DNA of 64,000 bases from Propionivibrio sp. (GTDB lineage Bacteria > Pseudomonadota > Gammaproteobacteria > Burkholderiales > Rhodocyclaceae). Below, piece after piece: positions 3,516-24,864 of this stretch; position 1 is the first letter of the stretch, and every line of letters begins with the position of its first letter. The notes beneath the pieces are model-generated. The model worked only from the letters and a program-made list of their open reading frames with translations. It had not been told where the DNA came from and made no database searches. The position numbers and the translations under genes are program-made. Location of the stretch: positions 310,001-374,000 of the forward strand of contig JADJLB010000002.1 of assembly GCA_016705685.1 (NCBI GenBank). The letters are read 5' to 3'.

Positions 3516-4328
3516 TTAAACACAGGCAGGCATTGAAACCGCCTGCAACACTTCACCCCCTTGAGCATCCTGAACCAAAGCCGCAATACCCAGGTTCTCG
3601 CGTTTCCATGCCGCAGGCAGGGTAACGACCTGTTTCCATTCCGCCTGACCGGTCTTGACGTCTATCGTGACCGGTTTGGACCAATAACGCACCACATTGT
3701 CGTGCCTCAATTTCGCGCCACGGTTCTCGCCGGCGCTGACCTCGCTGGATAACTGCTTCTCGTACACGATAACGATCCCCTGCGCCATTCGCCCCGGTCG
3801 CGCTGTTTCATCCAGGTCGAACCGTGCTGACAGATCGACATCAGCGCTGCCCGATGACCGCATCTGTACGGAAATTCTGGCACGGGCCGGCTGGCGGTTA
3901 ATCGTCTGGATGCGGTTCTCGAAGCTGTCCGGACTGCGCCATCCCCGAATTTCCTTCATTCCGACAAAAACTTCCGGTGTGTAGATGGTTGCGGTTGAGC
4001 CCAACTGACTCAGCCAGCGCTGACGTTCGGAAAAACGGGCTTGAGCGTAAGGGTCTTGCCAGCCGATATAGTCCCAGTAATCCACATGCAATGAAAGCGG
4101 TACCAGGCGGTCTGCGGCGTATCGCTGCGTCAGTTCGCCGAGCCAGCGGTCTGCGGGGGGGCAGCTGCTGCATCCTTCGGAAGTGTACAGCTCGACCAGC
4201 GCCACGGTATGCGCCGGGCTGCTTATGCTGCAGCTGGCGGCTTGAGCGGCCAGCACGGGCAGGACGAGGCTAAGCGCGACCGTTGCGCGAGAAAGCTTAT
4301 TCATTCGAGACACGGGGTTCTCCTGCAT
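3516..4328 (-). CDS. DUF1223 thioredoxin-fold protein, exported
   Basis: About 270 residues. The start MQENPVSRMNKL at 4328 is preceded by AAGGAA at a good distance; the alternative MNKLSRATV at 4304 has no such site. A signal peptide (SLVLPVLAAQA) precedes the mature domain. The conserved DUF1223 motif ELYTSEGCSSCPPADRW carries a CxxC-like redox pair and is followed by HVDYWDYIGWQDPY. It is the first gene of a three-gene minus-strand unit with msrB and msrA. A role as thiol partner of the periplasmic Msr pair is inference from linkage; the family itself is poorly characterised. Confidence 0.88.
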   Translation of the reverse strand: MQENPVSRMNKLSRATVALSLVLPVLAAQAASCSISSPAHTVALVELYTSEGCSSCPPADRWLGELTQRYAADRLVPLSLHVDYWDYIGWQDPYAQARFSERQRWLSQLGSTATIYTPEVFVGMKEIRGWRSPDSFENRIQTINRQPARARISVQMRSSGSADVDLSARFDLDETARPGRMAQGIVIVYEKQLSSEVSAGENRGAKLRHDNVVRYWSKPVTIDVKTGQAEWKQVVTLPAAWKRENLGIAALVQDAQGGEVLQAVSMPACV

Positions 4329-4598
4329 GAGGGTGTATTCCTTGGTCGTTTGAAGCGCCAAAAACTTACATTGAACAGCGGGACTGTGCATCAGAGGTGT
4401 TGCACCCGTTTTATCCATCATCACACCGTTCTTGGTCGGTACTGGCCTGGCGACCGTCGGCAAGGCAAACGTTCAACGGCAAGGCTGATGTGCCTGATTC
4501 ATGACCGCAGTCCGGGGATGCCGAACTGAAATTGCAGTGTGCAGGGTGATGTGTTAAAACCCATATTTGCTTTAGGTCTCGGAACGAACTGGTCGCTC

Positions 4599-5837
4599 AT
4601 GGTTTTCTCATTCTTCAGTAAGAAAACGCCGGAAAAGAAAATGGTTGCCAAGCCGGCTGCCGTTCCGCGTGGCAGAGACGTGCGTGAAGATGCGTTGCCG
4701 TCCGTTGATATGCAACCCGAGCCTTCCGACGAACCATTGCAGGCCGATTTGGTTTCTACCCCCGGCGGCGCCGCCGACGATTCGTCTTCACTTGATTTTA
4801 GCGGGTTCGAATTCAGTCAGAGTGCTCCGGATTTCCAGATCGAGCAAGATCTCGATCCGGTGGACGCCGAAGCTGAAGAAGCGGCGATTCTTTACGCCAA
4901 CGGTCAGGACGAAGCGGTGCGCGCTGTCCTGGAGAATGCGGTGCGCATTCATCATTTTGGACCGGGGGAACGTTTGTGGATGATGCTGTTTGACCTGTAC
5001 AGATTAACCGGCCAGAAGGCGGCTTTCGATGCGCTGGGAATAGATTATGCGCGCTCGTTTGAAAAGTCGCCTCCGGTTTGGCGCGACAAGTCTCCACGCC
5101 CGGCGAAGGCGAGTGAAGTGGTAGCGGGAAGCCTGCTGTTCAAGGGCGATCTGATTGCCGAGAACAACGCGGCGTTTGAAGCCGTCCGGCAGGCGCTGGT
5201 GAAGAATGCCAGGCTGCGCCTCGATATGTCCAAGGTGAATCAGATCGATGCGGTGGGTTGTGGCCGCCTGTTGAGCGTGTTGCAACAGGCGAGAAAATCC
5301 GGGCGTGAATTGGAATTGCTGGCCCGTGATACCCTGAGCGGTCTGGTTGAACAGCGGGTCGTCACCGGGAGCGCGGAAAACAGCGAATGCTGGTTGCTGC
5401 TTCTCGAACTTTGCCAGTTGCAGGGCCAACACGAGGCCTTTGAAGAATTGGCGATCAATTATGCCGTGACTTTTGAAGTTTCGCCGCCTTCATGGGAATC
5501 CGGCCGGGTGGCCGCTCCCGAACCGGTCGCGAGGGTCGCAACCCAGGCTTCCAGTGATGAAGAGGCCGCTGACGCCTATCGCGTGCAAGGGGATATCAAA
5601 GCCTCGCGTTTTGGCGACCTGAACGCACATGCCGATTTGCATGATCCTGTCGTTCTCGATTGCGCGGCGCTGGTACGTATGGATTTCATCAGTGCCGGCG
5701 CACTGCTCAATGTGTTGTCGACAATCCGGAAGCAAGGAAAACAGATCGTGTTTCGACACCCCAATCATCTGGTCGCCGAACTGTTCGGCGTTGTTGGCCT
5801 GCGTGCGGTAGCGGCCATCATTTTTGCAAAACACTAG
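4599..5837 (+). CDS. Tandem helical-repeat/STAS domain protein
   Basis: 412 residues from the ATG at 4599 ([14 protein letters not shown]); a GTG 60 bp upstream in frame is possible but less likely. After an acidic, low-complexity N-terminus (1-90) the protein has an internal duplication. A helical unit at about 124-161 ([14 protein letters not shown]...[12 protein letters not shown]) is echoed at 263-299 ([14 protein letters not shown]...[12 protein letters not shown]). Each copy is followed by a STAS-like segment (about 173-258 and 325-412). STAS domains bind nucleotides or anti-sigma partners; no kinase or transporter domain is present. No signal peptide. It sits 8 bp upstream of hslV. Function unknown. 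Confidence 0.85.
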
Positions 5838-7870: not shown

Positions 7871-8832
7871 CTGCTAGCCCAGTCCCGCGGCCGAAGCGCC
7901 TCGTAGAGCTCTGCCTCCGGCGTTCCCGCATCGGGCTTCCAGTCGTAACGCCATTTGACGACCGGTGGCAGCGACATCAGGATCGACTCGGTGCGGCCGC
8001 CCGACTGCAGGCCGAACAGGGTGCCGCGATCCCAGACGAGGTTGAACTCGACGTAACGGCCGCGCCGGTAGGCCTGAAAATCGCGCTCGCGATCGCCAAA
8101 GGGGGTATTCCGGCGCTTCTCGATGATCGGCAGATAGGCTTCGGTAAATGCGTCGCCAACCGCGCGCGTCAGCGCGAAACAGCGCTCGTCGCCACCTTCG
8201 TTCAGGTCGTCGAAAAAGATGCCGCCCACACCGCGCGGCTCATTGCGATGCTTCAGAAAGAAATACTCATCGCACCATTTCTTGTAGCGCGCATGAACGT
8301 CGTCGCCGAAGGGCGCCAGCGCCGTCCGGCAGGTGGCGTGAAAGTGGCGAATATCCGCTTCGAAGGGATAGTAGGGTGTCAAATCCATACCGCCGCCAAA
8401 CCACCAGAGGGTAGCGTCCTTGGCAAATGCCGCCGTATCGCTGCGATTGGCGAGAACATCGTTGCCGGGATGCGCCAGCAGGCAGCGCACATTCATATGC
8501 GCTGTCGGACAGTAGGGGTTTTCCGGATGAAGGACCAGTGAAACGCCCATGGCTTCAAAGGGACGACCAGCCAGCTCGGGTCGTTTGGCGGTGGCCGAGG
8601 CCGGCAGGGCCGCTCCGCTCACGTGCGAGAAAGATACGCCGCCGCGTTCGAACACCCGGCCGCCTTCAATGATGCAGGTCAGCCCGTTGCCATCGAGCGG
8701 CTGACCGGCTTCCTTGTGCCACGGGTCGGCCCGGAAACGCGCCCCACACCCGCCTTCCAGCGCTTCGACGGCAGCGACGATACGCGACTGCAGGCCGGAA
8801 AAGTAGGCCCTGAGCGTGCCGGTCTCGATCAT
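7867..8832 (-). CDS. hemF: Oxygen-dependent coproporphyrinogen-III oxidase
   Basis: Converts coproporphyrinogen III to protoporphyrinogen IX with O2 in haem synthesis. 321 residues, slightly longer than the E. coli enzyme. Conserved stretches include [55 protein letters not shown] and [15 protein letters not shown]. Its start overlaps the purD stop by 4 bp (ATGA), so the two unrelated pathways appear coupled. Use of the aerobic enzyme fits the cbb3 oxidase elsewhere in the window. Confidence 0.97.
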
Positions 8833-10106
8833 CGCGACGTGGCGCGATGCCCGATGTCATGCCGGTATTGCATGCCATCGAAATGGATGCCGACGAGCGC
8901 ATCGTAGGCGTGCTTCTGTGCCTGTTTGACGTTGTCGCCCAAGGCGGTGACGCACAGCACGCGGCCGCCCGATGTCAGAATCTTTCCGTCCAGCGTCTGC
9001 GTTCCGGCGTGGAATACATGGACGTCCTCGTTCTCGTCTGGCAAACCGCTGACGACATCGCCCAGGCGTGGTGTGTTCGGGTAATTGGCTGCCGCCAATA
9101 CGACGCCCAGGGCAACCCGGCGATCCCATTCGGCATCGATCTGATCGAGCTTGCCGGCCACGGCGTGTTCGAGCAGCGTGAGCAGGTTGGACTTGAGGCG
9201 CATCAGGATCGGCTGCGTTTCCGGGTCGCCCATGCGACAGTTGAACTCCACCGTCTTGACCGATCCGTCCTTGCCGATCATCAATCCGGCATAAAGAAAT
9301 CCGGTATAGGGCAGGCCATCGGCGGCCATCCCGCGCACCGTCGGCAAGATGATCTCGCGCATGGTTTTGGCGTGGATCGCCGGGGTGACGACCGGGGCCG
9401 GTGAGTAGGCTCCCATGCCTCCGGTGTTGGGGCCGGTATCGCCGTCGCCGATGCGCTTGTGATCCTGGCTCGATGCAAGCGGCAAGACGTTTTTGCCATC
9501 GACCATAACGATGAAGCTGGCTTCTTCGCCCTCCAGGAATTCCTCGATGACAACGCGCCGGGCGCCTTGATTCCCCGCTCCTGCTTTGTTCCCGGATAGC
9601 ATATCGTCGATGGCGTTGTGTGCTTCATCCAGCGTCATGGCGACAACGACGCCTTTGCCGGCCGCCAGCCCGTCGGCTTTGACGACGATAGGCGCCCCCT
9701 GCTTGTCGACAAAGGCATGCGCGGCGGCGCTATCGGTGAAGCTGGCAAAATCCGCTGTGGGGATGTGATGACGGACCATGAAACGCTTGGCAAAATCCTT
9801 CGAGCTTTCAAGCTGGGCCGCTTCACGCGTCGGTCCGAATATCTTCAGCCCGCGAGCACGGAAGATGTTGACGACGCCGGCCGCCAGCGGGGCCTCAGGA
9901 CCGACGACGGTCAGATGAATGCCTTCCTTTTCCGCGAAATCGGCCAGTGCCTCCGGTTCGGTGATATGGATGTTCATGACTTCGGCTTCACGTGCCGTGC
10001 CGGCGTTGCCCGGCGCGACGAAAATACGTTGAATGCCGGAGAGTTTGGACAGGTGCCAAGCCAGCGCATGCTCGCGCCCGCCGGAGCCTATGACGAGTAA
10101 CTTCAT
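8829..10106 (-). CDS. purD: Phosphoribosylamine-glycine ligase
   Basis: Second step of de novo purine synthesis, ATP-dependent formation of GAR. 425 residues beginning [17 protein letters not shown], the standard N-terminus, with an AAGG ribosome site upstream. ATP-grasp features include [26 protein letters not shown] and [12 protein letters not shown]. It is 88 bp downstream of purH on the same strand, forming the common purH-purD pair, and overlaps hemF by 4 bp. Confidence 0.98.
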
Positions 10107-10194
10107 AAAAACCTTTTAGCTTAAAATCACCAAGACAGAGATAAGCCAAGAATTTTGGCAGCGGGTATTCCTGGCGCCCTGGGAGTGAGACAAA

Positions 10195-11760
10195 TCAATG
10201 CCTGAAGTGACGGGCGCCGGTAAACACCATCGCCAATCCGTGTTCGTTGGCCGCCGCAATGACTTCTTCGTCGCGCACCGAACCGCCAGGTTGTATGACG
10301 GATTTGGCGCCGGCTTCCGCGACCACATCGAGGCCATCACGGAACGGAAAGAACGCATCCGAAGCCACGCAGGAACCCGCCAGCGAAAGGCCGGCGTTCG
10401 ATGCCTTGGCGGCCGCGATACGCGTTGAATCGACCCGGCTCATCTGGCCCGCTCCGACGCCCAGCGTCATGCCGCCGCCGCAGAAGACAATGGCATTGGA
10501 TTTGACGAACTTGGCGACGCGCCAAGCAAAGAGCAGGTCGTCAAGTTGTGCGTCGGTCGGTGTGGCATGGGTTACCACCTTGAGGTCGGAGGCGAGAACG
10601 TTAAACATGTCCGGCGTCTGCAGCAATAGCCCACCGCCAACGCGTTTGAACTCGAAGGCGTGGTAGTTATTGGACAGCGGCAACTCAAGAACGCGGAGAT
10701 TCTGTTTGGACGCGAGCATGGCCTTGGCTTCTGGCGTATAAGCCGGAGCGATGAGGACTTCGACAAAATGCTTGCGTTCATTCATGGCCTTGACGACCTC
10801 AGTATCGACCGTGCCGTTGAACGCGATAATGCCGCCGAAAGCCGAGCTTGAATCCGTCTTGAAAGCCTTCTCGTAGGCAGAAAGCAAATCAACGTCGATG
10901 GCCACGCCGCAGGGGTTGGCGTGCTTGATAATGACGCAGCACGGCGCCTGGAAAGTCTTTACGCATTCCCATGCGGCATCGGCATCGGCAATGTTGTTAT
11001 ACGACAGTTCTTTGCCCTGTATTTGCTGGTAATCCGCGATGGTGCCGGGAGTCGGTATCGGGTCGCGGTAGAAGGCCGCCTTCTGGTGTGGATTTTCGCC
11101 GTAGCGCAAGGTTTCGACACAATCGAAGGCGAGCTGGAGTTTGTCGGGAAACAGTTTCGGTTTGTTGTCTTCGTCAAGCGCAGTCAGCCAGTTGGCAATC
11201 GCCGCGTCGTAGCGTGCCGTGTGGGTGAATGCCTTCTTGGCCAGCCCGAATCGCGTCGCTGGAGTCAGCGCACCGTCGTTGGCCTGCATTTCGGCGAGCA
11301 GCGCGGTGTAATCCTCCGGGTCGGTGACGACGGCGACGCTGGTGTAATTCTTCGCCGCCGAGCGGACCATGGCCGGCCCCCCGATATCAATGTTCTCGAT
11401 GGCCTCTTCGAGCGTCACGTCGGGCTTGGCGATGGTTTCGCGAAAGGGATAAAGATTCACGCAAACCAGATCGATGGTCGGGATGCCGTGCTTTTCGATC
11501 GTGGCCAGATGTTCGGGCAAATCGCGGCGGGCAAGGATGCCGCCGTGAACCTTCGGATGCAAGGTCTTGACACGGCCGTCCAGCATTTCCGGAAAGCCGG
11601 TGTAATCCCCAATGTCGGTGACCTCAAGACCTGCGTCACGCAGCTGTCTGGCCGTGCCGCCCGTGGAAAGCAGTTTGACTCCCTGGGCGGCGAGTCCCCG
11701 GGCGAACTCAAGCGCGCCGCGTTTGTCGGAAAGACTGATCAGGGCTTGACGGATTTTCAT
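10195..11760 (-). CDS. purH: Bifunctional AICAR formyltransferase/IMP cyclohydrolase
   Basis: Catalyses the last two steps of IMP synthesis. 521 residues. The N-terminal MGS-like IMP cyclohydrolase domain (about 1-200) starts [15 protein letters not shown] and contains [11 protein letters not shown] and [15 protein letters not shown]. The C-terminal AICAR transformylase domain carries KHANPCGVA, the active-site Lys-His, and [10 protein letters not shown]. Upstream lies fis (same strand, 140 bp away), matching the frequent dusB-fis-purH order. Confidence 0.98.
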
Positions 11761-11900
11761 GGAGAGCTTTCAGGTGTAATTAGTCAATGGCAAGGTCGCG
11801 GGACCCTCGAGTATGCCAAACGGGCAAGAAGTACAATTTTTCAATTTTCCATGCGCATTGCCCTATCGAAAGCATTACTTCCGGCAGAAAACAAACCGCT

Positions 11901-12137
11901 TCATACGAGCTTGTAATCGACCAGCTTCTTGCGCAAGGTATTGCGGTTGATGCCAAGCATTGCGGCGGCTTGTGTCTGGTTTCCGCCGGCCTGCCTGATG
12001 ATCACTTCAAACATCGGGCGTTCGACGCTTCTAATAACCATGTCATATATCGGGGCGGGCATTTCGCCATCCAGATTCTTGAAGTAGGTCTCCAGGGCAG
12101 CGTAAATACAGCTTGAAATATCATTGTGTTGTTTCAT
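11901..12137 (-). CDS. fis: Fis family DNA-binding protein
   Basis: Small nucleoid-associated regulator, 78 residues. The C-terminal helix-turn-helix reads GGNQTQAAAMLGINRNTLRKKL, and the N-terminal half is the dimerisation region. Its start overlaps the dusB stop by 4 bp, the conserved dusB-fis arrangement known from E. coli. The protein is shorter than the 98-residue E. coli Fis because the N-terminal beta-hairpin is reduced, as is usual in betaproteobacteria. Confidence 0.95.
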   Translation of the reverse strand: MKQHNDISSCIYAALETYFKNLDGEMPAPIYDMVIRSVERPMFEVIIRQAGGNQTQAAAMLGINRNTLRKKLVDYKLV

Positions 12138-13168
12138 GCGGCAAGCTCCTCCAAATTATTATTTTGATCCATCTGGATGTAGTTCAGGCGTTCGCTGTTT
12201 TCGGCAAGAGAGCAAAAGAAATCATTGACCGCCTGTTGTTGCTGGATGACGTCAGGCAGCCGGTTCATCTTGTGACGGAAAGCGGCAGAATCAGCCAGAC
12301 CTCGCGTGTACCAGGAGATGTGTTTGCGCGCGACACATACTCCGGTCTCGATTCCATAGAAGTCGTAAAGATCCTCAAGGTGTGCGAGCAGTATGGCGTG
12401 AATTTCGCTGACCCGGGGCGGTAGCAGGTGAGCGCCCGTTTTCAGAAAGTGTTCGATCTCGCGGAATAGCCAGGGGCGGCCTTGAGCGGCACGCCCGACC
12501 ATCAGCGCGTCCGCACCCGTGATTTCGAGCACATGCCTGGCCATTTCCGGTGTGTTGATGTCACCGTTGGCAATAATCGGGATGGCTGCCACCTGCTTTA
12601 CCATGGCGATGGTTTCGTATTCTGCTTTACCGGTGTAGCCGCAGGCGCGTGTCCTGCCGTGCAGGGCCAGGGCGCGGATACCGGAGTGCTCGGCGATCTT
12701 GAGAATCGACAGCGCATTGCGCGAAGACTGGTCCCAACCGGTGCGGATTTTGAGGGTCACCGGCGTGCCGGGCACGGCATTGACCACGGCTTCAAGAATC
12801 CGGCCAACCAGCGATTCGTCCTTGAGCAGAGCCGAACCCGCCATGACATTACAGATCTTCTTGGCCGGGCAGCCCATATTGATATCGATGATTTGTGCGC
12901 CGCGATCGACGTTGTAACGAGCGGCGTCAGCCATCATCGAAGGCACCGCACCGGCAATCTGGACTGAAATCGGTTCGGCTTCGCCATCGTGGTTGGCGCG
13001 CCGCTTTGTCTTGGCGCTGCCGTACAGAAGCGAGTTCGACGTGACCATCTCGGACACGGCCAGTCCGGCGCCCATCTTCTTGCACAACTGCCGAAAAGGA
13101 CGGTCAGTAACACCGGCCATCGGGGCGACAAACAAATTGTTTCGCAATGAAAAGCCGACGAAATCCAT
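12134..13168 (-). CDS. dusB: tRNA-dihydrouridine synthase B
   Basis: FMN-dependent reduction of uridine in the tRNA D-loop. 344 residues, starting MDFVGFSLRNNLFVAPMAGVTDRPFR, which is the DusB N-terminus. The catalytic cysteine is C100 in INMGCPAKKI. The FMN-binding TIM barrel continues with TLKIRTGWDQS, LHGRTRACGYTG and NGDINTPE. First gene of dusB-fis. The 107 bp upstream, before the hydroxylase gene, probably hold the promoter. Confidence 0.97.
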   Translation of the reverse strand: MDFVGFSLRNNLFVAPMAGVTDRPFRQLCKKMGAGLAVSEMVTSNSLLYGSAKTKRRANHDGEAEPISVQIAGAVPSMMADAARYNVDRGAQIIDINMGCPAKKICNVMAGSALLKDESLVGRILEAVVNAVPGTPVTLKIRTGWDQSSRNALSILKIAEHSGIRALALHGRTRACGYTGKAEYETIAMVKQVAAIPIIANGDINTPEMARHVLEITGADALMVGRAAQGRPWLFREIEHFLKTGAHLLPPRVSEIHAILLAHLEDLYDFYGIETGVCVARKHISWYTRGLADSAAFRHKMNRLPDVIQQQQAVNDFFCSLAENSERLNYIQMDQNNNLEELAA

Positions 13169-13275
13169 GGCAGTGGAGTGTGCAGGGTGTGGCTGGGGAA
13201 GGGGGAATTCTAACCTGAATGCCGCGCGATAAACAGTCGATTACCAAATCTGTGCTATAGCTTGATCTGAGCGGC

Positions 13276-14446
13276 TCAAGGCCACGCGCGCGCGCCCCAG
13301 ATCATGCGTTTGGCGACAAAATTCCGCAGGGGCGGGCAAAGGTCGAGCGCGAGCAGTCCGACGCCTCGGACCAGATTCAGCGGCGCCACGTTGTTGGAAA
13401 ACAGTCGGACGATGCCATCGGTAAACGCCATGCTTCCCCGCCGGTCGATTTGGCGGCCTCGAGCGTAAGCCTTTAGTGCCGAAGGGTCACCGGCATCGGC
13501 ACGATCGAACAGCGATTCGGCGAGTTCCCAGGCATCGCGCAGGCCAAGATTCAAACCCTGGCCTGAGACCGGATGCAGGGTTTGCGCGGTGTTGCCGATC
13601 CACACCTGGCGATGCTGCACAAGTTGCGTTCGATAACGCAGCGTCAGCGGGAAGCCGATGCGCGGTCCCGTAGCAATAAAATCGAGGCGCTGTCCAAACT
13701 GATCCCGTAGCGCGGCAAGGAAAGCTTCATCGTCGAGTGCGAGTAGTCGCGCAGCTTTCCCGGGCGGTACGGTGAATACGGTCGAATAGTCTTGATCGAG
13801 CGGTAGCAGGGCCAGCGGCCCGTCCGGTGTAAAACGTTCCCAGGCGCGGTTGTGGTGACCCGTCGCCGGGCGTACTTCGGCAACGATGGCGTGCTGATGG
13901 TAATCGCGGATCCGGATGTCGGGCCCGCGATCCGGCGTCCCTTCGGCATGCACGATCAGTTTGGTCTTGATGGTCCGCTTTTCGCCCAGGTGCGTGACCG
14001 TCACCGTGGCCACGTGCTCTTCCGTTTCGATCTTGTCGACGGTGCACAGCTCGATGCGCTGCTCTGGCGGGATGCGGGCAGAGAGGCCGGCGGCAAGGTC
14101 GCGGTAACGCATGACGTAGCCCAGTGCCGGCAAGCCGTAGTCCTCGCTGGAGATCAGGGTGCGTCCGAAACCGCCGCGTTGCGAAACGTGGATCTGCCGG
14201 ATCGCCGTGCCGGCAGTCGCCTGCCATGCATCCAGGCGTTCAAGCAGTTGCCGGCTGCCCTGCGAGAGCGCCAGCGCCCGCGGGTCGGTGGCCCATCCAC
14301 GCTGGCGGCTGTCGACAAGCAGCACGCGTTGCGCGCTGCCAGCCAATGCCGCTGTTAGCGCCATGCCAACCGGGCCGGCCCCGACAATGAGTATGTCAAT
14401 GTCAATAACGGCATTAGGTGCCATCGTCGGGGACTGTGCGGCGTGT

Positions 14447-14454
<8 letters not shown>
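13276..14454 (-). CDS. UbiH/UbiF/COQ6 family FAD-dependent hydroxylase
   Basis: Flavoprotein monooxygenase expected to hydroxylate a ubiquinone precursor at the inner membrane. The GTG at 14454 is chosen as start: GAGG lies nine bases upstream, and it overlaps pepP by 8 bp. An ATG at 14472 would lie deeper in pepP. FAD motifs are ILIVGAGPVGMALTAAL near the N-terminus and IGNTAQTLHPVSGQGLNLGLRDA near residue 300. The pepP-ubiH neighbourhood is classic, but which ring position it hydroxylates (UbiH, UbiF, UbiI or UbiM type) cannot be read from sequence alone. Confidence 0.92.
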
Positions 14455-17564
<3,110 letters not shown>

Positions 17565-17681
17565 GCCGCTACTCCTTGGTCTTAGGTGCTAAAATGCCGT
17601 GATTTTAACACTCGCTCCCAAGGCTTCTGCGCCAACGGAATCAAATCGGGTTTGCTACGCTTTTTGTATTGAAATTTCCGC

Positions 17682-20600
17682 ATGAATTTTTCCTGCCGGC
17701 GCAAAGTGCGCGCGCTGCTCATTTGCTACGGTGTGGTGTGCTTTCTATTTGGCGGTCCACCCGCTGAAGCGCAGGCGCCCGCGCCCCTTCGCGTAGATCC
17801 GGTGTTGCTTGGGCTGCCACCGGTCAAACCGGCTGAAATGCCGGCACCTGCTTCCGCTACCACGCCAGCCTCTCCCACGACACCCGCAGACAAGGCGCGC
17901 AGCGAAGCCAAGCCCGTAGAGGTCAAAGCTTTGGACGCTGATACCGTTGAGACGCGTCCTCTAACGAACGAGCAAGTGGCTAGCCCGCCGGCAACGGCCA
18001 GCCAGAAAGCTGTGCCGAAAATTCCGGAACGAACTGCTGCTCCTCCGTCGGCGCCCTCGGTATCGAAGCCGTTGCCTACAACCACGCCGCTTTCGCCAGT
18101 ACCCGTGATACCGATGCCTACGCCGCCAGCACCCGATCAGCGTGAGGAAGGACGTCAAGAAGCGAAACCGGCGCCTGTGCGGCAGGTGGAGAAACAGCCG
18201 GAGCCTGAAGCACAATCGCCAACGCAATCCACCAAGCCGGTTACCCGACAACAGGCACAGGTGGTATCGGCTTCGCCGAAAGCGTCTGCAACGCCTGTTG
18301 TGGTCTCGTCATCTGCACCCTTACGTGTCGATCCGGCCTTGCTCGGCCTTCCGCCCGCCGCAGTGACGGTGGCGCCCCAACAATCATCCGTCGTAACCGA
18401 GGCGGGTCGTTCCGCATCTGCCCCGAATGTGACAACGGAACGGTCGTCGGGGCGGAGAACTTCGACGTCTTCACCCGCCGCAAAATCTGCGGAAGCCGAC
18501 AGGTCCTGGTACCAGCGCGTGTGGCACCCGATTGCCAATGCCTACAACAATGGCGCGTTCGAGTTTTATCTACCACTGGAAACGTATCATCTGCGCAGCA
18601 AGTATTCCGCTGAAAAAATCGCGACCTTTCAGGAAAAACCTTTCGGTTTCGGTGTCGGTCGTGGCGGGTACAACGAACATGGGAACTGGGAGGGCGTCTA
18701 TGCGATGGGTTTCCAGGATTCACATTTCAAGCCGTCATATATAGCGGGGTACGGCTGGAAAGCCATCTGGCATCCAGCGGAGGACGTTCGTCTGGGCTTG
18801 GGGTATACCGCCGCTTTGATGACGCGGGCAGACATTGCAAACTACATACCATTCCCAGTCGTTTTGCCGATGGCATCATTGGCGTACAAGAATCTCAGTC
18901 TGGAGACGGTCTTTGTGCCGGGGGCTGCCGGGGCAGGCAATATCTTTTTCATCTGGGCAAAATGGGAGTTGGGGAAAAAGGGAGAAGCCATCGGCACGCC
19001 CGCGCAACCAGTGCAACAGAATCCGGCTGTCATGGCGAATACTTCTTTCGGCCCGTCTACGCCGGTGGCCCGACAGCGCGTGCCGTATGGCCCCGTTCTC
19101 GAGCCCGGCTCTACGCAACGCCTGGCTTCGTCAGCGCAAACCGAACCGCCGCGCGTGCCGGCAACAGGTCGTCGAGATGAGGAGGAGGTTCCCGATCCGC
19201 TGCCGCCCCTGGCTTTGCGTTATTCAAAGAAGATGGTGCCACCACCGAAAGAAAGCGCGGTCCCACGGCCGGTGTTTCTCAGCGCTTACCGCATGGGTGG
19301 AGAAGTCGATCGGGAATTTTCCGCCGAAGGGGAGGCCGAACTGCGCAAGATCGGCACCGTAGTTAATGCGGATCGTTTGACCTACTGGCCGATCGACGAT
19401 GAAGTCGAAGCCGAGGGCAATGCGCGTCTCGAGCAAGGCGAGGATCTGATTACCGGACCGAAGATGCGCATGAAGCTGGAAGATCAGGTGGGCTTTTTCG
19501 AGCAGCCGTCCTATACGCTCAAGCGGCAGCCGGCACCAGGCAGCAAAGCGGCAGCCGATAAGGCGTTCGCGGCCAGATATGCACAGCAACAGGACGAAAA
19601 TTCCTGGCTCACTTCGGGCTTTGCGGCGCCGCGAATGCTTGATATCAAGCCTGGGCAGACAAAGCTGAAAGACACCACGCACGTCCGAACGATGACCGAA
19701 GCACGGGGCGAGGCGGACCGAATCGATTTCGAGGGCGAGAATCAGGTTCGCATGACCAATGCCACCTATACGACGTGCGCTCCGGGCAATGACGACTGGT
19801 ATGCCAAGGTTGGCAGTCTCAAACTCGACTATGACCGCGAGGTCGCCGAGGGTACGGATGGCACCGTCTATTTTTTCGACACGCCCATTCTGTATTCGCC
19901 GTGGCTATCCTTCTCCCTCAACAACCAACGGAAATCCGGCCTTCTTGCACCGACATTCGGTACCAGCAGTGACAGCGGTATTGAGCTGTCATTGCCTTAT
20001 TACTGGAACATCGCGCCGAATATGGACGCGACAGTTACGCCGCGCGTGATGTCCAAACGTGGCCTTCAGGTCAGTAATGTATTCCGCTATCTCAATACGG
20101 GGTTGGGTGGTATGTATCGGGGACAGGTTAGTGCCGAGGTGCTTCCTGACGATAACTTGCGTAGTGGAGATACGCGCTACGGTTTCTCTGTTCAGCATAC
20201 CCAATCGACATCAAGCGGATTCGGTGGCCTGATCAATTACAGCAAGGTGTCGGACGACAAATACTTTACCGATCTGTCGAGTCATATCACCAATACCGCG
20301 AACACACAGCTCTTGCAGCAGGGGATGTTGACCTACGGCGGAGGCGGCTGGTGGAGCGCGACCGCGAATTTCCAGCAGTACCAGACCTTGCAGCCCGATA
20401 TCAAGAATCCTGTGCTGGAGCCGTACCGTTTGCTGCCGCAGATAACAGTCAATGCCCGCAAACCCGATTGGAACATGACCGACAGCAGTTTCTTCGGGCA
20501 GTACACCAATTTCACGATCAAGGATCGTATACAGAATGTCAATGGCGTTGCCAAAGTGTATCCGGATGCGCAGCGAACCATACTTTACCCGCAAGTCGCG

Positions 20601-21626
20601 CTGCCCTATGTGACGCCGGGTTGGTATGTCACGCCGAAGGTCGGCGTTAACGTCCGCAACTATTCCCTTTCGGGCCAGACGGTAGGCACGCCGGAATCCA
20701 TCAGCACGACGCTGCCGATCTTCAGTCTGGATTCCGGGATGACCTTCGAGCGGCCGAGCAACTGGTTTGGACGGGACTACACGCAGACGCTGGAACCGCG
20801 TCTTTACTACGTGAATATTCCATACAAGAATCAGGATCAGATTCCGATTTTCGATACGGCCCTGGCTGATTTCAACTTCGCGCAGATTTTCTCCGAGAAC
20901 CAGTTTTCCGGGTGGGATCGCGTCAACAATGCCAATCAGCTAACGGCCGCTGCGACGAGTCGGTTGCTTGAGCCCTCATCGGGTAACGAAATCATGCGCG
21001 CGATGCTTGGCCAGCGGTTTTACTTCTCGAGAAGCAAGGTTGGCCTGACGGCGAATTCACTTGCCGCCACCAATGATCGCAAATGGGACAAATCCGATTT
21101 CCTCGCCGCGTTCAGCGGGCAAATTCTGCCCAAGGTCTACGCCGATGCGGCCTGGCAATACAACTTGGGTGATCGCCAAGTCAAACGCTATTCGATGGGG
21201 GCGCGCTATCAACCGGAACCAGGCAAGGTTTTCAGCGCGAGCTATCGCTATAATCGCGATTCCAGTGCGCCGTTGGACCAGGTCGACTTTTCCGGCCAAT
21301 GGCCGATAACGGGGCGCTGGAATGCGGTCGGCCGGATCAACTACTCATTCAAGGACGACGCAACCAATGTCTCGTCGAACACCCAGGGCGGGCGTTTGAT
21401 CGAGTCGATCGCCGGTCTGGAATACAACGGCGGATGCTGGGTTCTTCGCGGAGTCGTGCAACGGATCGCCCTCACGCAAAACAATGCTTCAACTGCATTC
21501 TTCATCCAGCTTGAGCTGAATGATTTTTCGCGAATCGGTTCCAATCCGCTGAACCTTCTCAAGCGCAATATTCAGGGCTATAGCCTGATCAATCAGACGA
21601 CAGCTGACCCTGTCTTTGGTGAATAG
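17682..21626 (+). CDS. lptD: PagP-LptD fusion: lipid A palmitoyltransferase joined to LPS-assembly protein
   Basis: 1314 residues, against roughly 750-800 for ordinary LptD. A single signal peptide (1-30, ending PPAEA) is followed by a Pro/Ala/Ser/Thr-rich linker (about 32-273). A PagP-like domain covers about 274-433. The three PagP active-site residues align: H303 (ETYHLRSKY), D346 and S347 (GFQDSHF). GNWEGVYAM, IAGYGWKAIWHP and NYIPFPVVLPMASL also match PagP. A second linker (434-528) leads to the LptD jellyroll (about 529-690) and barrel (700-1314). Only two mature cysteines remain, C699 and C1252, corresponding to one of the two LptD disulfides. No internal start has a signal peptide, so LptD export depends on the fusion. 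surA, encoding the LptD chaperone, follows. Confidence 0.95.
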   Translation: MNFSCRRKVRALLICYGVVCFLFGGPPAEAQAPAPLRVDPVLLGLPPVKPAEMPAPASATTPASPTTPADKARSEAKPVEVKALDADTVETRPLTNEQVASPPATASQKAVPKIPERTAAPPSAPSVSKPLPTTTPLSPVPVIPMPTPPAPDQREEGRQEAKPAPVRQVEKQPEPEAQSPTQSTKPVTRQQAQVVSASPKASATPVVVSSSAPLRVDPALLGLPPAAVTVAPQQSSVVTEAGRSASAPNVTTERSSGRRTSTSSPAAKSAEADRSWYQRVWHPIANAYNNGAFEFYLPLETYHLRSKYSAEKIATFQEKPFGFGVGRGGYNEHGNWEGVYAMGFQDSHFKPSYIAGYGWKAIWHPAEDVRLGLGYTAALMTRADIANYIPFPVVLPMASLAYKNLSLETVFVPGAAGAGNIFFIWAKWELGKKGEAIGTPAQPVQQNPAVMANTSFGPSTPVARQRVPYGPVLEPGSTQRLASSAQTEPPRVPATGRRDEEEVPDPLPPLALRYSKKMVPPPKESAVPRPVFLSAYRMGGEVDREFSAEGEAELRKIGTVVNADRLTYWPIDDEVEAEGNARLEQGEDLITGPKMRMKLEDQVGFFEQPSYTLKRQPAPGSKAAADKAFAARYAQQQDENSWLTSGFAAPRMLDIKPGQTKLKDTTHVRTMTEARGEADRIDFEGENQVRMTNATYTTCAPGNDDWYAKVGSLKLDYDREVAEGTDGTVYFFDTPILYSPWLSFSLNNQRKSGLLAPTFGTSSDSGIELSLPYYWNIAPNMDATVTPRVMSKRGLQVSNVFRYLNTGLGGMYRGQVSAEVLPDDNLRSGDTRYGFSVQHTQSTSSGFGGLINYSKVSDDKYFTDLSSHITNTANTQLLQQGMLTYGGGGWWSATANFQQYQTLQPDIKNPVLEPYRLLPQITVNARKPDWNMTDSSFFGQYTNFTIKDRIQNVNGVAKVYPDAQRTILYPQVALPYVTPGWYVTPKVGVNVRNYSLSGQTVGTPESISTTLPIFSLDSGMTFERPSNWFGRDYTQTLEPRLYYVNIPYKNQDQIPIFDTALADFNFAQIFSENQFSGWDRVNNANQLTAAATSRLLEPSSGNEIMRAMLGQRFYFSRSKVGLTANSLAATNDRKWDKSDFLAAFSGQILPKVYADAAWQYNLGDRQVKRYSMGARYQPEPGKVFSASYRYNRDSSAPLDQVDFSGQWPITGRWNAVGRINYSFKDDATNVSSNTQGGRLIESIAGLEYNGGCWVLRGVVQRIALTQNNASTAFFIQLELNDFSRIGSNPLNLLKRNIQGYSLINQTTADPVFGE

Positions 21627-21637
21627 GAGGCTCGTCA

Positions 21638-22954
21638 ATGAAGCTAATGATGCTACGTACCTTGATCCTGTATTTTTTCTGTGCCGGACTGGCTTTGGCC
21701 CAATCACCCCGACGGCTGGCAGGGGAACCGTTGCCAGCTGATCGAATCGTCGCGGTTGTGAATGACGATGTAATTACACTGCACGAGTTGCGTACGCGAC
21801 TGGATATTGCGCTCAGTCAGCTCAAGCGGCAGGGCACCCCATTGCCACCACGCAATGTTCTCGAGCATCAGATGCTTGAGCGTCTGGTGACGGACAAGGT
21901 GCAACTTCAATTTGCACGCGAAACCGGTTTGCGTGTTGACGATGCGCAGCTTGAAAAGGCTCTGCAGCGCATAGCCGCCAACAACAAGATGTCGCTCTCC
22001 CAATTTCGCGAGGCACTGCAAAAGGACGGAATTCCATTCGCAAAGTTTCGCGAGGATATCCGTGACGAGATAATCCTGTCGCGTGTTCGTGAGCGTGAAG
22101 TGGAGAACAAGATCTCAATTTCGGAAGGTGAGATCGACAACTACCTTAGCGGCGATTCGACGAAGGGCGGAGCGGGTGAAGAATACGAAGTTGCCCACAT
22201 TCTTTTTCGTGCGCCCGAGTCGGCAAGCCCGGAGCAGCTTCAGAAGCTCAAGGCCAAGGCCGACGACGTTTTTGAGCGGGTGAAAAAGGGGGAGGATTTT
22301 GCTCAACTGGCCGCGGCTTATTCGGATGCGCCGGATGGCCTGAACGGTGGCAATCTGGGCCCGCGGACTCTGGACCGCCTGCCAGGAAGCTTTGCCGACG
22401 CTGTGACCAAGCTGCAGGCCGGCGAGGTTGCGCCTGTCCTGCGCAGTTCGAACGGGTTTCATATCATCAAACTGCTGACGAAACGCGGTGGTGCTTCGGC
22501 CATGCCGGCGGTACAACAAACGCATGTGCGGCATATTCTGATCAAGGTCAACGAGCTGGTTTCCGAATCTGATGCCAAGCATAAACTGGCCGGTTTGTAT
22601 GAGCGGATCAAGAATGGGGCGAGCTTTGCCGAGTTGGCCAGGCTCTTCTCGCAGGATGGTTCGGCCTCCAAAGGGGGTGATCTGGGCTGGATCTACCCCG
22701 GTGATACGGTTCCGGATTTTGAGCGGGCGATGAATGCGCTCAAACCAGGCGAAGTCAGCCAGCCGATTCAATCGCCTTTCGGTTTTCATCTGATTGAAGT
22801 GCTTGAACGTCGTGTGCAGGACGTTTCGGCCGATCGTCAGCGTGCTGTGGCGCGTCAGGCGCTTCGTGAACGCAAAATGGATGAGGCTTATCAGGACTGG
22901 TTGCGCCAGGCGCGGGATCGCGCCTATGTCGAAATTCGCCTCGAGGAGCCCTGA
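21638..22954 (+). CDS. surA: Periplasmic chaperone/peptidyl-prolyl isomerase SurA
   Basis: Escorts outer-membrane barrel proteins, including LptD, to the BAM complex. 438 residues, with an AGGAGG ribosome site and a signal peptide ending near GLALAQSP. The N-terminal chaperone domain (about 28-170) starts RIVAVVNDDVITLHELRTRL. Two parvulin domains follow, at about 183-285 (VAHILFRAP, GFHIIKLL) and 293-393 (VRHILIKVN, GFHLIEVLERR). It lies 11 bp after lptD and 3 bp before pdxA, the conserved lptD-surA-pdxA-rsmA operon. Confidence 0.98.
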   Translation: MKLMMLRTLILYFFCAGLALAQSPRRLAGEPLPADRIVAVVNDDVITLHELRTRLDIALSQLKRQGTPLPPRNVLEHQMLERLVTDKVQLQFARETGLRVDDAQLEKALQRIAANNKMSLSQFREALQKDGIPFAKFREDIRDEIILSRVREREVENKISISEGEIDNYLSGDSTKGGAGEEYEVAHILFRAPESASPEQLQKLKAKADDVFERVKKGEDFAQLAAAYSDAPDGLNGGNLGPRTLDRLPGSFADAVTKLQAGEVAPVLRSSNGFHIIKLLTKRGGASAMPAVQQTHVRHILIKVNELVSESDAKHKLAGLYERIKNGASFAELARLFSQDGSASKGGDLGWIYPGDTVPDFERAMNALKPGEVSQPIQSPFGFHLIEVLERRVQDVSADRQRAVARQALRERKMDEAYQDWLRQARDRAYVEIRLEEP

Positions 22955-22957
22955 GCC

Positions 22958-23947
22958 ATGTCGGGTCGGCCCCTGATTGCCGTAACCTCGGGTGAGCCGG
23001 CTGGGATAGGGCCGGAAATCTGTCTGCGCCTGATTGAATTCAATTCAGCCGCAGGCAACGCAGATCTGCTTATCCTTGCCGATCGAAAGCTGCTGGCCGA
23101 GCGTGCTGAAGCCGTCGGTTTCGCAGGCAAGTTACGCGAATGGACAAGCGGATTACATCCGGCACCAGGATGCCTCGATGTTCTGCACGTTCCACTGTCC
23201 GTGCCTTCACACCCTGGGCAGCTCGATCCGGCCAATGCGGACTATGTCCTTCAATTGCTCGATCGGGGTATCGAGGGTTGTTTGTCGGGAATCTATGCCG
23301 CCATTGTAACGGCGCCGGTCCATAAAGGCGTGATCAACGATTCCGGAATTCAATTTACCGGCCATACCGAATATCTGGCTGAAAAGACGGGTACGCCGCA
23401 TGTCGTGATGATGTTGGCAGGCGGTGGTCTGAAAGTCGCCTTGGCGACAACCCATCTGCCCCTGAAAGCGGTGTCACCGTCATTGACGCAGGAGTCGCTC
23501 GAACAGACAATACGCATTCTGCATGCGGAAATGGTCAGAAAATACGCCATCACAAAGCCGCGAATTCTGGTTGCCGGGCTGAACCCCCATGCCGGCGAAG
23601 GCGGTTATCTCGGGCATGAAGAAATCGAGGTCATCACGCCGGTGCTGGAGCGATTGCGTGCCGAGGGTCTGCAACTGATAGGCCCATTGCCTGCCGATAC
23701 GATGTTCACTCCACCGATGCTGGCGCAGGGTGATTGCATATTGGCGATGTACCACGATCAAGGGCTGACGGCGCTGAAGTATGCGAGTTTTGGCAACGGA
23801 ATCAACATAACGCTCGGTTTGCCGATCATCCGCACCTCGGTCGATCATGGCACCGCCCTCGAGTTGGCCGGAAGTGGACAGGCCGATCCGGGGAGTCTTT
23901 TCGCTGCTGTCGAACAAGCCATAGCGATGGCAAGCAGACACATGTGA
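22958..23947 (+). CDS. pdxA: 4-hydroxythreonine-4-phosphate dehydrogenase
   Basis: NAD-dependent step of pyridoxal phosphate synthesis. 329 residues with a GAGGAG ribosome site. Conserved segments are VTSGEPAGIGPEICL, IVTAPVHKGVIN, FTGHTEYLAE, GLNPHAGEGGYLGHEE and MYHDQGLTALKY, which include the metal-binding histidines. Third gene of the lptD-surA-pdxA-rsmA operon; rsmA follows after 80 bp. Confidence 0.98.
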   Translation: MSGRPLIAVTSGEPAGIGPEICLRLIEFNSAAGNADLLILADRKLLAERAEAVGFAGKLREWTSGLHPAPGCLDVLHVPLSVPSHPGQLDPANADYVLQLLDRGIEGCLSGIYAAIVTAPVHKGVINDSGIQFTGHTEYLAEKTGTPHVVMMLAGGGLKVALATTHLPLKAVSPSLTQESLEQTIRILHAEMVRKYAITKPRILVAGLNPHAGEGGYLGHEEIEVITPVLERLRAEGLQLIGPLPADTMFTPPMLAQGDCILAMYHDQGLTALKYASFGNGINITLGLPIIRTSVDHGTALELAGSGQADPGSLFAAVEQAIAMASRHM

Positions 23948-24027
23948 TGCGGAGAGTCCGGCATGCCGAACATGAAGATCATGTCATTTCGCGTTGAGGG
24001 AAAAGAACAAGCATCCGGGCCGGCAGG

Positions 24028-24864
24028 ATGAGCAAACACATTGCCCGCAAACGTTTTGGGCAGCATTTTCTGGTTGACCCGCAAGTGATCGCAGAAATCA
24101 TCAACGCCCTGGGGTTGAAGCGCGATGATTTTGTCATTGAGATCGGGCCGGGTCTGGGCGCGCTGACCGAGCCATTGCTAACACGGCTGGATCACTTGCA
24201 TGTCATCGAGATTGACCGCGACATCATATCCCGGCTCAAGCAGTGGTATGCACCTGAAAAACTCACCCTGCACGAAGGCGATGCCCTGACCTTCGACTTT
24301 TCTTCGCTTTCCCAGAACGCAACCCCAAGCCTACACATTGTCGGCAATTTGCCCTACAACATTTCGACGCCGCTCCTGTTTCATCTGGCGGGTTATGCGA
24401 AACATGTTACCGGCATGCATTTCATGCTTCAAAAAGAAGTCGTCGAGCGCATGGTAGCTGAACCCGGCACCAAGGATTTCGGGCGTCTGTCGGTCATGCT
24501 TCAGTATCGTTTTGTGATGGACTGGCTGTTTGACGTTCCTCCAGAGTCTTTTGACCCTCCGCCTAAGGTCGACTCTGCCGTGGTGCGCCTGATTCCCCGT
24601 CTTCCTGAGGAATTGTCGGCACGGGATGAGGCGATGTTTGCGGCGCTGGTTTCCGCCGCTTTCTCACATCGCCGCAAGATGTTGCGCAACAACTTGAAGG
24701 GGATTCTTGACTTGGCCGAATTCGAGCGACTTGGTGTGTCTTCATCGGCGAGAGCTGAGGAGCTGTCGGTCGAAGATTACATCCGCATGGCAAATAGGTT
24801 GACCGGGAATCCTGAGACACGTCAACGCCTAGTCCATGGCGCTAAGGAAACGACCCGCCTTTGA
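24028..24864 (+). CDS. rsmA: 16S rRNA dimethyladenosine transferase
   Basis: Dimethylates A1518 and A1519 of 16S rRNA (KsgA). 278 residues. The N-terminus [16 protein letters not shown] is typical. The SAM-binding motif is [15 protein letters not shown] and the catalytic motif is NLPYNIS. The C-terminal segment [17 protein letters not shown] is conserved. Last gene of the operon, convergent with the DUF2892 gene 33 bp away. Confidence 0.98.

Follow-up and report, generated by a model that had tools for sequence, protein, structure and literature searches.

Why would the barrel that exports lipopolysaccharide (LPS) carry, in its own polypeptide chain, an enzyme that modifies lipid A? This question is raised by a stretch of 64,000 nucleotides from Propionivibrio sp. 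(family Rhodocyclaceae; GenBank assembly GCA_016705685.1, contig JADJLB010000002.1, positions 310,001 to 374,000), hereafter called the window, in which a single ATG-to-stop frame of 1314 codons (17682-21626, plus strand) reads as a pagP-lptD fusion gene. From the sequence comparisons described below, we consider it probable that the sole LPS exporter barrel of this bacterium is tethered to a second outer-membrane barrel, namely an active lipid A palmitoyltransferase.

Two barrel domains in one chain

From the N- to the C-terminus, the encoded protein comprises a putative signal peptide, a Pro/Ala/Ser-rich linker of about 230 residues, PagP, a second linker of about 96 residues and LptD, which extends up to the stop codon. 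The original prediction, made from the window alone, had placed a signal peptide, a PagP-like domain (about residues 274-433) and a complete LptD (about 529-1314) in one frame, and this is confirmed by the frame itself and by matches in Pfam and NCBIfam. The Pfam PagP profile (PF07017) aligned over positions 2-144 of its 144 with residues 284-427 (172.6 bits, E 4.3e-51, cut-off 24), and the NCBIfam equivalog model for lipid IV(A) palmitoyltransferase PagP (PRK11045) with residues 266-429 (185.9 bits, cut-off 155). The match to the Pfam LptD profile (PF04453) was likewise complete and strong (residues 831-1213, 330.7 bits, profile positions 2-384 of 384). LptD_N (PF03968) matched weakly at residues 561-703, with 24.6 bits against a whole-protein cut-off of 20.4 that no individual stretch passes, and two NCBIfam LptD equivalogs scored under their cut-offs (354 against 683 and 335 against 944 bits). 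Because the Pfam matches, the solved structures and the locus all fit LptD, we read these two models as probably built for other lineages and their scores as no argument against an LptD identity. Among solved structures, the PagP part matched PagP alone (1mm4/1thq and 3gp6, E 7e-35) and the LptD part matched LptD entries. Taken together, domain profiles and sequence matches to solved structures place two complete transmembrane-barrel domains in one chain.

The gene lies at the native lptD locus, since the fetched relatives have the same lptD-surA-pdxA-ksgA neighbourhood. The genome (3.46 Mb, 97% complete) has its only PagP match and its only LptD match inside this frame, a profile search finding neither a second LptD nor a free PagP elsewhere in it; one separate LptE match is present.

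Occurrence of the fusion

A survey of relatives for fused and free pagP genes, suggested at the outset, found the fusion in 14 genomes of three genera (10 of the 28 genomes of the window's genus, 1 of 1 genome in a second genus of the family and 3 of 3 in a third) and a separate PagP in none of them. A single PagP match was found per fused genome, with the exception of G022, where two matches are the pieces of a gene split over two contigs, counted as one by inference; the fused frames of G007 and G005 end at contig ends. The domain order is common to all 14 genomes, two of which (G009 and G026) are assembled in 4 contigs each, and no internal stop is seen. An assembly join or frameshift between the two parts, a concern raised with the original prediction, is excluded because the same architecture occurs in 13 other assemblies. 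Nothing was found in favour of an assembly join or a gene-calling artefact, the sole split copy being that of G022, and such an origin of the frame can be set aside almost entirely.

The family, order and class genome sets were samples and not exhaustive. In the family sample (395 genomes), 48 genomes have a PagP above cut-off, 12 of them fused and 36 in frames no longer than 593 codons. The longest of these, in G058, was considered as a further fusion and rejected, the portion before PagP overlapping the purH frame. Beyond the family, no fusion but the window's own was found in the order sample (399 genomes, 57 with a PagP above cut-off) or the class sample (369 genomes, 15 with one), the longest other PagP frames there being 539 and 279 codons.

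As a separate observation, the minus strand of locus L019, from family f20 of the order, has a 539-codon frame with a distant PagP-like domain followed by about 180 in-frame residues, which on visual inspection resemble a further small beta-barrel with Phe at its end; this, too, may be a protein with two barrels. Other f20 genomes have PagP frames of 389-486 codons.

Conservation of the PagP domain

H303, D346 and S347 had been proposed to align with the active site of E. coli PagP, and the alignment with structure-entry sequences bears this out. They correspond to His33, Asp76 and Ser77, which we take to be the catalytic residues of the E. coli enzyme; the equivalent His, Asp and Ser are kept in all 14 fused and all 26 standalone PagP domains aligned. 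The four prolines that presumably line the lipid gates are also kept in 14 of 14 fused domains. At the position of Gly88, assumed here to be the floor of the hydrocarbon ruler for the acyl chain, the window protein has G358, which would predict C16 selectivity; glycine occupies this position in 9 of 14 fused and 16 of 26 standalone domains. Homology further implies that the domain would fold as an eight-strand barrel.

The ratio of nonsynonymous to synonymous substitution rates (dN/dS) was computed for 6 of the 14 fused genes (the script filter kept 6 of 11 named). Its medians are 0.16 for PagP, 0.18 for LptD, 0.34 for the first linker and 0.45 for the second, values of which only the rank order is safe because synonymous sites are near saturation. 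In the six genes measured, PagP is under about as strong constraint as LptD. This equal constraint and the catalytic triad kept in every fused protein argue against a catalytically idle PagP that would serve LptD as a second membrane anchor or assembly aid. The occurrence, in more than one lineage within the genus, of relatives' LptD genes without the domain and the changes in loop residues would suit such a role, which we regard as very improbable.

A proposed tethered enzyme at the exit of the exporter

The topological plausibility claimed for the fusion is supported. The N-terminal domain of LptD is periplasmic, and the active site of E. coli PagP faces outward. The N-terminal helix of PagP is described as periplasmic (PMC2887491). 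A barrel whose strand number is even, eight in PagP, has its C terminus back in the periplasm, so that both linkers can stay there.

We infer the activity of the domain, its position next to LptD, the timing, the benefit and the route of gain and loss. Secretion and assembly by the beta-barrel assembly machinery (BAM) would leave the PagP barrel in the outer membrane within reach of LptD, and the periplasmic linker of about 96 residues would, to judge from its length, hold it within some nanometres. PagP would then move palmitate from an outer-leaflet phospholipid to the lipid A just delivered by LptD; indeed, palmitoylation of lipid A where LPS emerges, as first suggested for this gene, is the best inference as to what the domain may do. 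A surveillance of LptD or of LPS density, put forward at the same time, is speculative. Fusion would bring a 1:1 stoichiometry, expression along with a housekeeping gene and direct contact with LPS as soon as it arrives. For E. coli, LPS and outer-membrane proteins are reported to be immobile after insertion, with LptD clustered (PMC11912417), and how PagP reaches enough LPS at low diffusivity is called unclear in PMC7617971. Attachment to the exporter would bring PagP into immediate contact with new LPS. A tighter, co-translocational form of this coupling, with PagP docked beside the lateral gate of LptD, each LPS palmitoylated on exit, and transport and outer-leaflet repair performed by one machine, is possible and is put forward only tentatively.

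The fusion might instead merely couple expression, PagP being active and its amount tied to that of LptD while nearness has no effect, or a protease might free the two barrels. The linkers are long and weakly constrained, and standalone pagP persists elsewhere in the family, as this explanation would allow. Both domains nevertheless remain in one frame across three genera, a separate PagP copy is found in 0 of 14 fused genomes, and no second signal peptide was seen by eye in the window's linker; on balance, expression coupling alone appears unlikely.

Origin of the domain

Loci were fetched for 20 of the 36 standalone pagP genes of the family sample: 14 are flanked by purH and purD, 2 adjoin one of these genes at a contig end, and 4 lie elsewhere. 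Of 6 loci fetched outside the family but within the order, 2 have pagP at this site as well. Among the 14 fused genomes, 9 show the purH-purD junction, and it is free of pagP in all 9, the gap measuring 82 bases in the window, 14-94 bases in seven others and 1881 bases, with unrelated frames, in one. In the window, this junction is about 7.5 kb from lptD, on the opposite strand. Standalone pagP is found about 9-13 kb from lptD in seven genomes (G034, G048, G058, G130, G138, G148 and G192) and at a large distance in G109; in G117, G164 and G200 the two genes are on different contigs.

In the PagP tree, the fused PagPs form one group (support 90/85; 92% of bootstrap trees), which is nested among standalone PagPs of the purH-purD type and joins those of two genera (97/90). 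Two alternative placements of the G058 PagP were tried: inside the fused group it was disfavoured (p 0.025), and as sister of the G052 PagP it was rejected (p 5e-6). Disordered linkers with the LRVDPxLLG motif described below exist also in LptDs without PagP. The domain most likely came from the family's own pagP, by a local move with inversion into the lptD linker, which is the simplest reading of its origin: a pagP of the purH-purD site, on the strand opposite to lptD, would have moved into the N-terminal disordered linker of lptD and later been lost in some descendants.

Two further observations concern the purH-purD site itself. The purH-pagP-purD arrangement (L104, L105 and others) is a conserved pairing that recurs in several genera of the family and, beyond it, in two more families of the order. 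In the fused genome G208 (locus L155, about positions 3954-5825), the insertion between purH and purD looks by eye like an AAA-type ATPase gene with a partner frame, possibly a defence pair.

Weighing of the evidence

Several observations count against the reading of a tethered, active enzyme derived from the family's own pagP. Gly88 is replaced in 5 of 14 fused domains, namely by Thr in G052, Ser in G012 and G013, Gln in G022 and Ala in G125 (loci L079, L080, L075, L082 and L084, respectively). The choice of acyl chain may therefore vary, and these variants would predict differing acyl-chain lengths among fused PagPs. Asp61 and His67 of E. coli PagP, which we assume to be lipid A-contacting positions, are also altered: at the former, 12 of 14 fused domains have N, whereas 19 of 26 standalone ones have D, and at the latter, 14 of 14 fused domains have E or Q, whereas 16 of 26 standalone ones have H. 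Structure prediction with AlphaFold2 gave, for residues 262-1314 with 4 sequences, a mean predicted local distance difference test score (pLDDT) of 26.9, the alignment being too shallow to place the barrels, and for the PagP domain with 5 sequences a weak model (pLDDT 46.8), whose best Foldseek matches are 3gp6 and 1thq (E 2.5e-6 and 8e-6, template-modelling score about 0.3). Within the genus, 18 of 28 genomes are without any PagP match, so the function is dispensable. An LptD match is present in 16 of these 18, the other two being 75% and 59% complete, and the N-terminal part of LptD was seen without PagP in 14 of the 16, G015 and G025 being cut there by a contig end. Of 7 PagP-less genomes of the genus fetched, 5 show the purH-purD junction, which is likewise pagP-free in all of them, and an empty junction alone is therefore no proof of a move. 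Finally, the LptD tree pairs the fused g26 with G058, a g32 genome whose pagP is standalone (98/94), and rejects vertical descent of the fused LptDs as one clade (approximately unbiased test, p 1e-58); as this tree splits the fused LptDs, it calls for several losses or for movement of the module between lptD genes.

The two altered contact positions would also suit a PagP acting at LptD as a phospholipase-like sentinel or cleaner, which would clear outer-leaflet phospholipids where LPS insertion falters, palmitoylation being secondary. PagP is reported to take its palmitate from phospholipids and to have a slow phospholipase activity without an acceptor (PMC7617971). Against this role stand the unchanged catalytic residues and a PagP match at equivalog level, and we consider it improbable.

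As for descent, in a tree of proteins encoded by five flanking genes, g26 stays with the window's genus, and g32 and g19 lie nearer to both than g99 does; this tree was built from untrimmed alignments, its support labels are approximate after re-rooting, and several forks are weak, including g32-g19. The PagP tree likewise has g99 outside g26 and the genus, and the flanking-gene tree agrees better with the PagP tree than the LptD tree does. This would fit one gain followed by a loss on the way to g32 and g19 and by additional losses within the genus. The PagP-less LptDs of the genus as a single clade were also rejected (p 9e-8), and there seem to have been repeated losses of the PagP domain.

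A trace of such a loss was sought in the linkers. That of G006 scored 60 against the window's PagP-proximal linker (shuffled mean 33; reached by 1 of 1000 shuffles), and that of G027 scored 60 too (3 of 1000 shuffles). Given this equal score, the 15 relatives compared and the low-complexity sequence, a putative deletion scar in the G006 linker is suggestive only. By the same shuffle measure, the linkers of the four g26 and g99 proteins showed no match to the window's.

Features of the locus

The coordinates of the fusion gene, of its parts and of the neighbouring genes are given in Table 1.

Table 1. Features of the pagP-lptD locus (positions within the window)
Feature	Position	Strand	Basis or remark
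pagP-lptD fusion gene, 1314 aa	17682..21626	+	Profile matches; sole lptD and sole pagP match
Signal peptide, residues ~1-32 (n-region RRKVR, hydrophobic core, cleavage near AEAQA)	17682..17777	+	By eye
First LRVDPVLLG motif, residues 36-44, near the mature N terminus	17787..17813	+	Occurs also in PagP-less LptDs
Low-complexity Pro/Ala/Ser-rich linker, residues 45-265, containing the second motif	17814..18476	+	dN/dS above both domains
Second LRVDPALLG motif, residues 214-222, ahead of PagP	18321..18347	+	Sequence pattern
PagP domain, residues ~266-432: N-terminal helix and 8-strand barrel	18477..18977	+	Predicted by homology
H303	18588..18590	+	Aligned with His33 of E. coli PagP
D346-S347	18717..18722	+	Aligned with Asp76-Ser77 of E. 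coli PagP
G358	18753..18755	+	Aligned with Gly88 of E. coli PagP
Second linker, residues 433-528, PagP to LptD	18978..19265	+	No second signal peptide seen by eye
LptD: LptD_N 561-703 and barrel PF04453 831-1213	19266..21623	+	Pfam
purH-purD junction, 82 bases, no pagP	10116..10197	-	pagP site of many relatives
Divergent upstream neighbours purD, purH, dusB, ubiH, pepP, murU, amgK	8832..17588	-	Names read from sequence, no family search
surA, pdxA, ksgA downstream	21638..24864	+	Names read from sequence

The nine-residue motif LRVDPxLLG stands just past the LptD signal peptide of the window protein and again about 180 residues later. Two copies are present in 8 of the 14 fused proteins and one in the rest, two of which are cut or unclear at the N terminus. 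The strict pattern was found in 9 of 31 LptDs examined from other genera, and close variants occur in further ones, PagP-less LptDs included. Elsewhere in the genome, a DNA pattern covering part of the possible codons gave two loose matches, neither keeping the motif. LRVDPxLLG may be a short binding motif of LptD. In the LptD part, C699 and C1252 are the sole cysteines of the protein past the signal peptide.

Comparison with known systems

Two-barrel single chains are a described class, of which GfcD and YjbH, tied to capsule or exopolysaccharide export, are predicted examples (PMC11494523, PMC9603273); both sources cite a 2021 PNAS survey of multi-barrel proteins (Solan et al.). Multi-barrel outer-membrane proteins are therefore already known, and the pairing of PagP with LptD is apparently unreported among the matches listed in a search of the open-access literature, which included no report of such a fusion; the survey of Solan et al. 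may list the pair. No paper on PagP with Rhodocyclales was found in the open-access literature either.

Free PagP is described as scarce in the E. coli outer membrane (PMC7617971). A natural fusion of PagP with the LPS exporter could allow new LPS molecules to be modified where they arrive and would be an evolved answer to how PagP meets LPS where little diffuses. It would also be a case of a dispensable enzyme carried by the exporter itself, and the assembly by BAM of a barrel lying inside a chain could be studied on this naturally occurring two-barrel protein. For a ready comparison, there are fused species, near relatives that lack the domain and others whose pagP is free.

The PagP part resembles known PagP (PF07017, PRK11045; E. 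coli 1THQ, 3GP6) in its full-length match, its catalytic His, Asp and Ser, its gate prolines and its N-terminal helix segment. The PagPs of E. coli and, to judge by frame length, of the other sampled genomes are free-standing (with the possible exception of f20), whereas here the domain is internal to a longer chain; unlike in the E. coli enzyme, its last strand runs via a linker into LptD and the Asp61 and His67 positions are altered. The LptD part is like known LptD (PF04453 with LptD_N) in its N-terminal domain, its barrel, its lptD-surA-pdxA-ksgA locus and its sole copy, with LptE present. It differs from the usual LptD by a long low-complexity N-terminal extension, two LRVDPxLLG motifs, a complete second barrel domain within and just one cysteine pair. 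As in the multi-barrel outer-membrane proteins GfcD and YjbH, two transmembrane barrels are predicted per polypeptide; unlike in these proteins, the chain joins an enzyme barrel to the LPS exporter that would supply its substrate.

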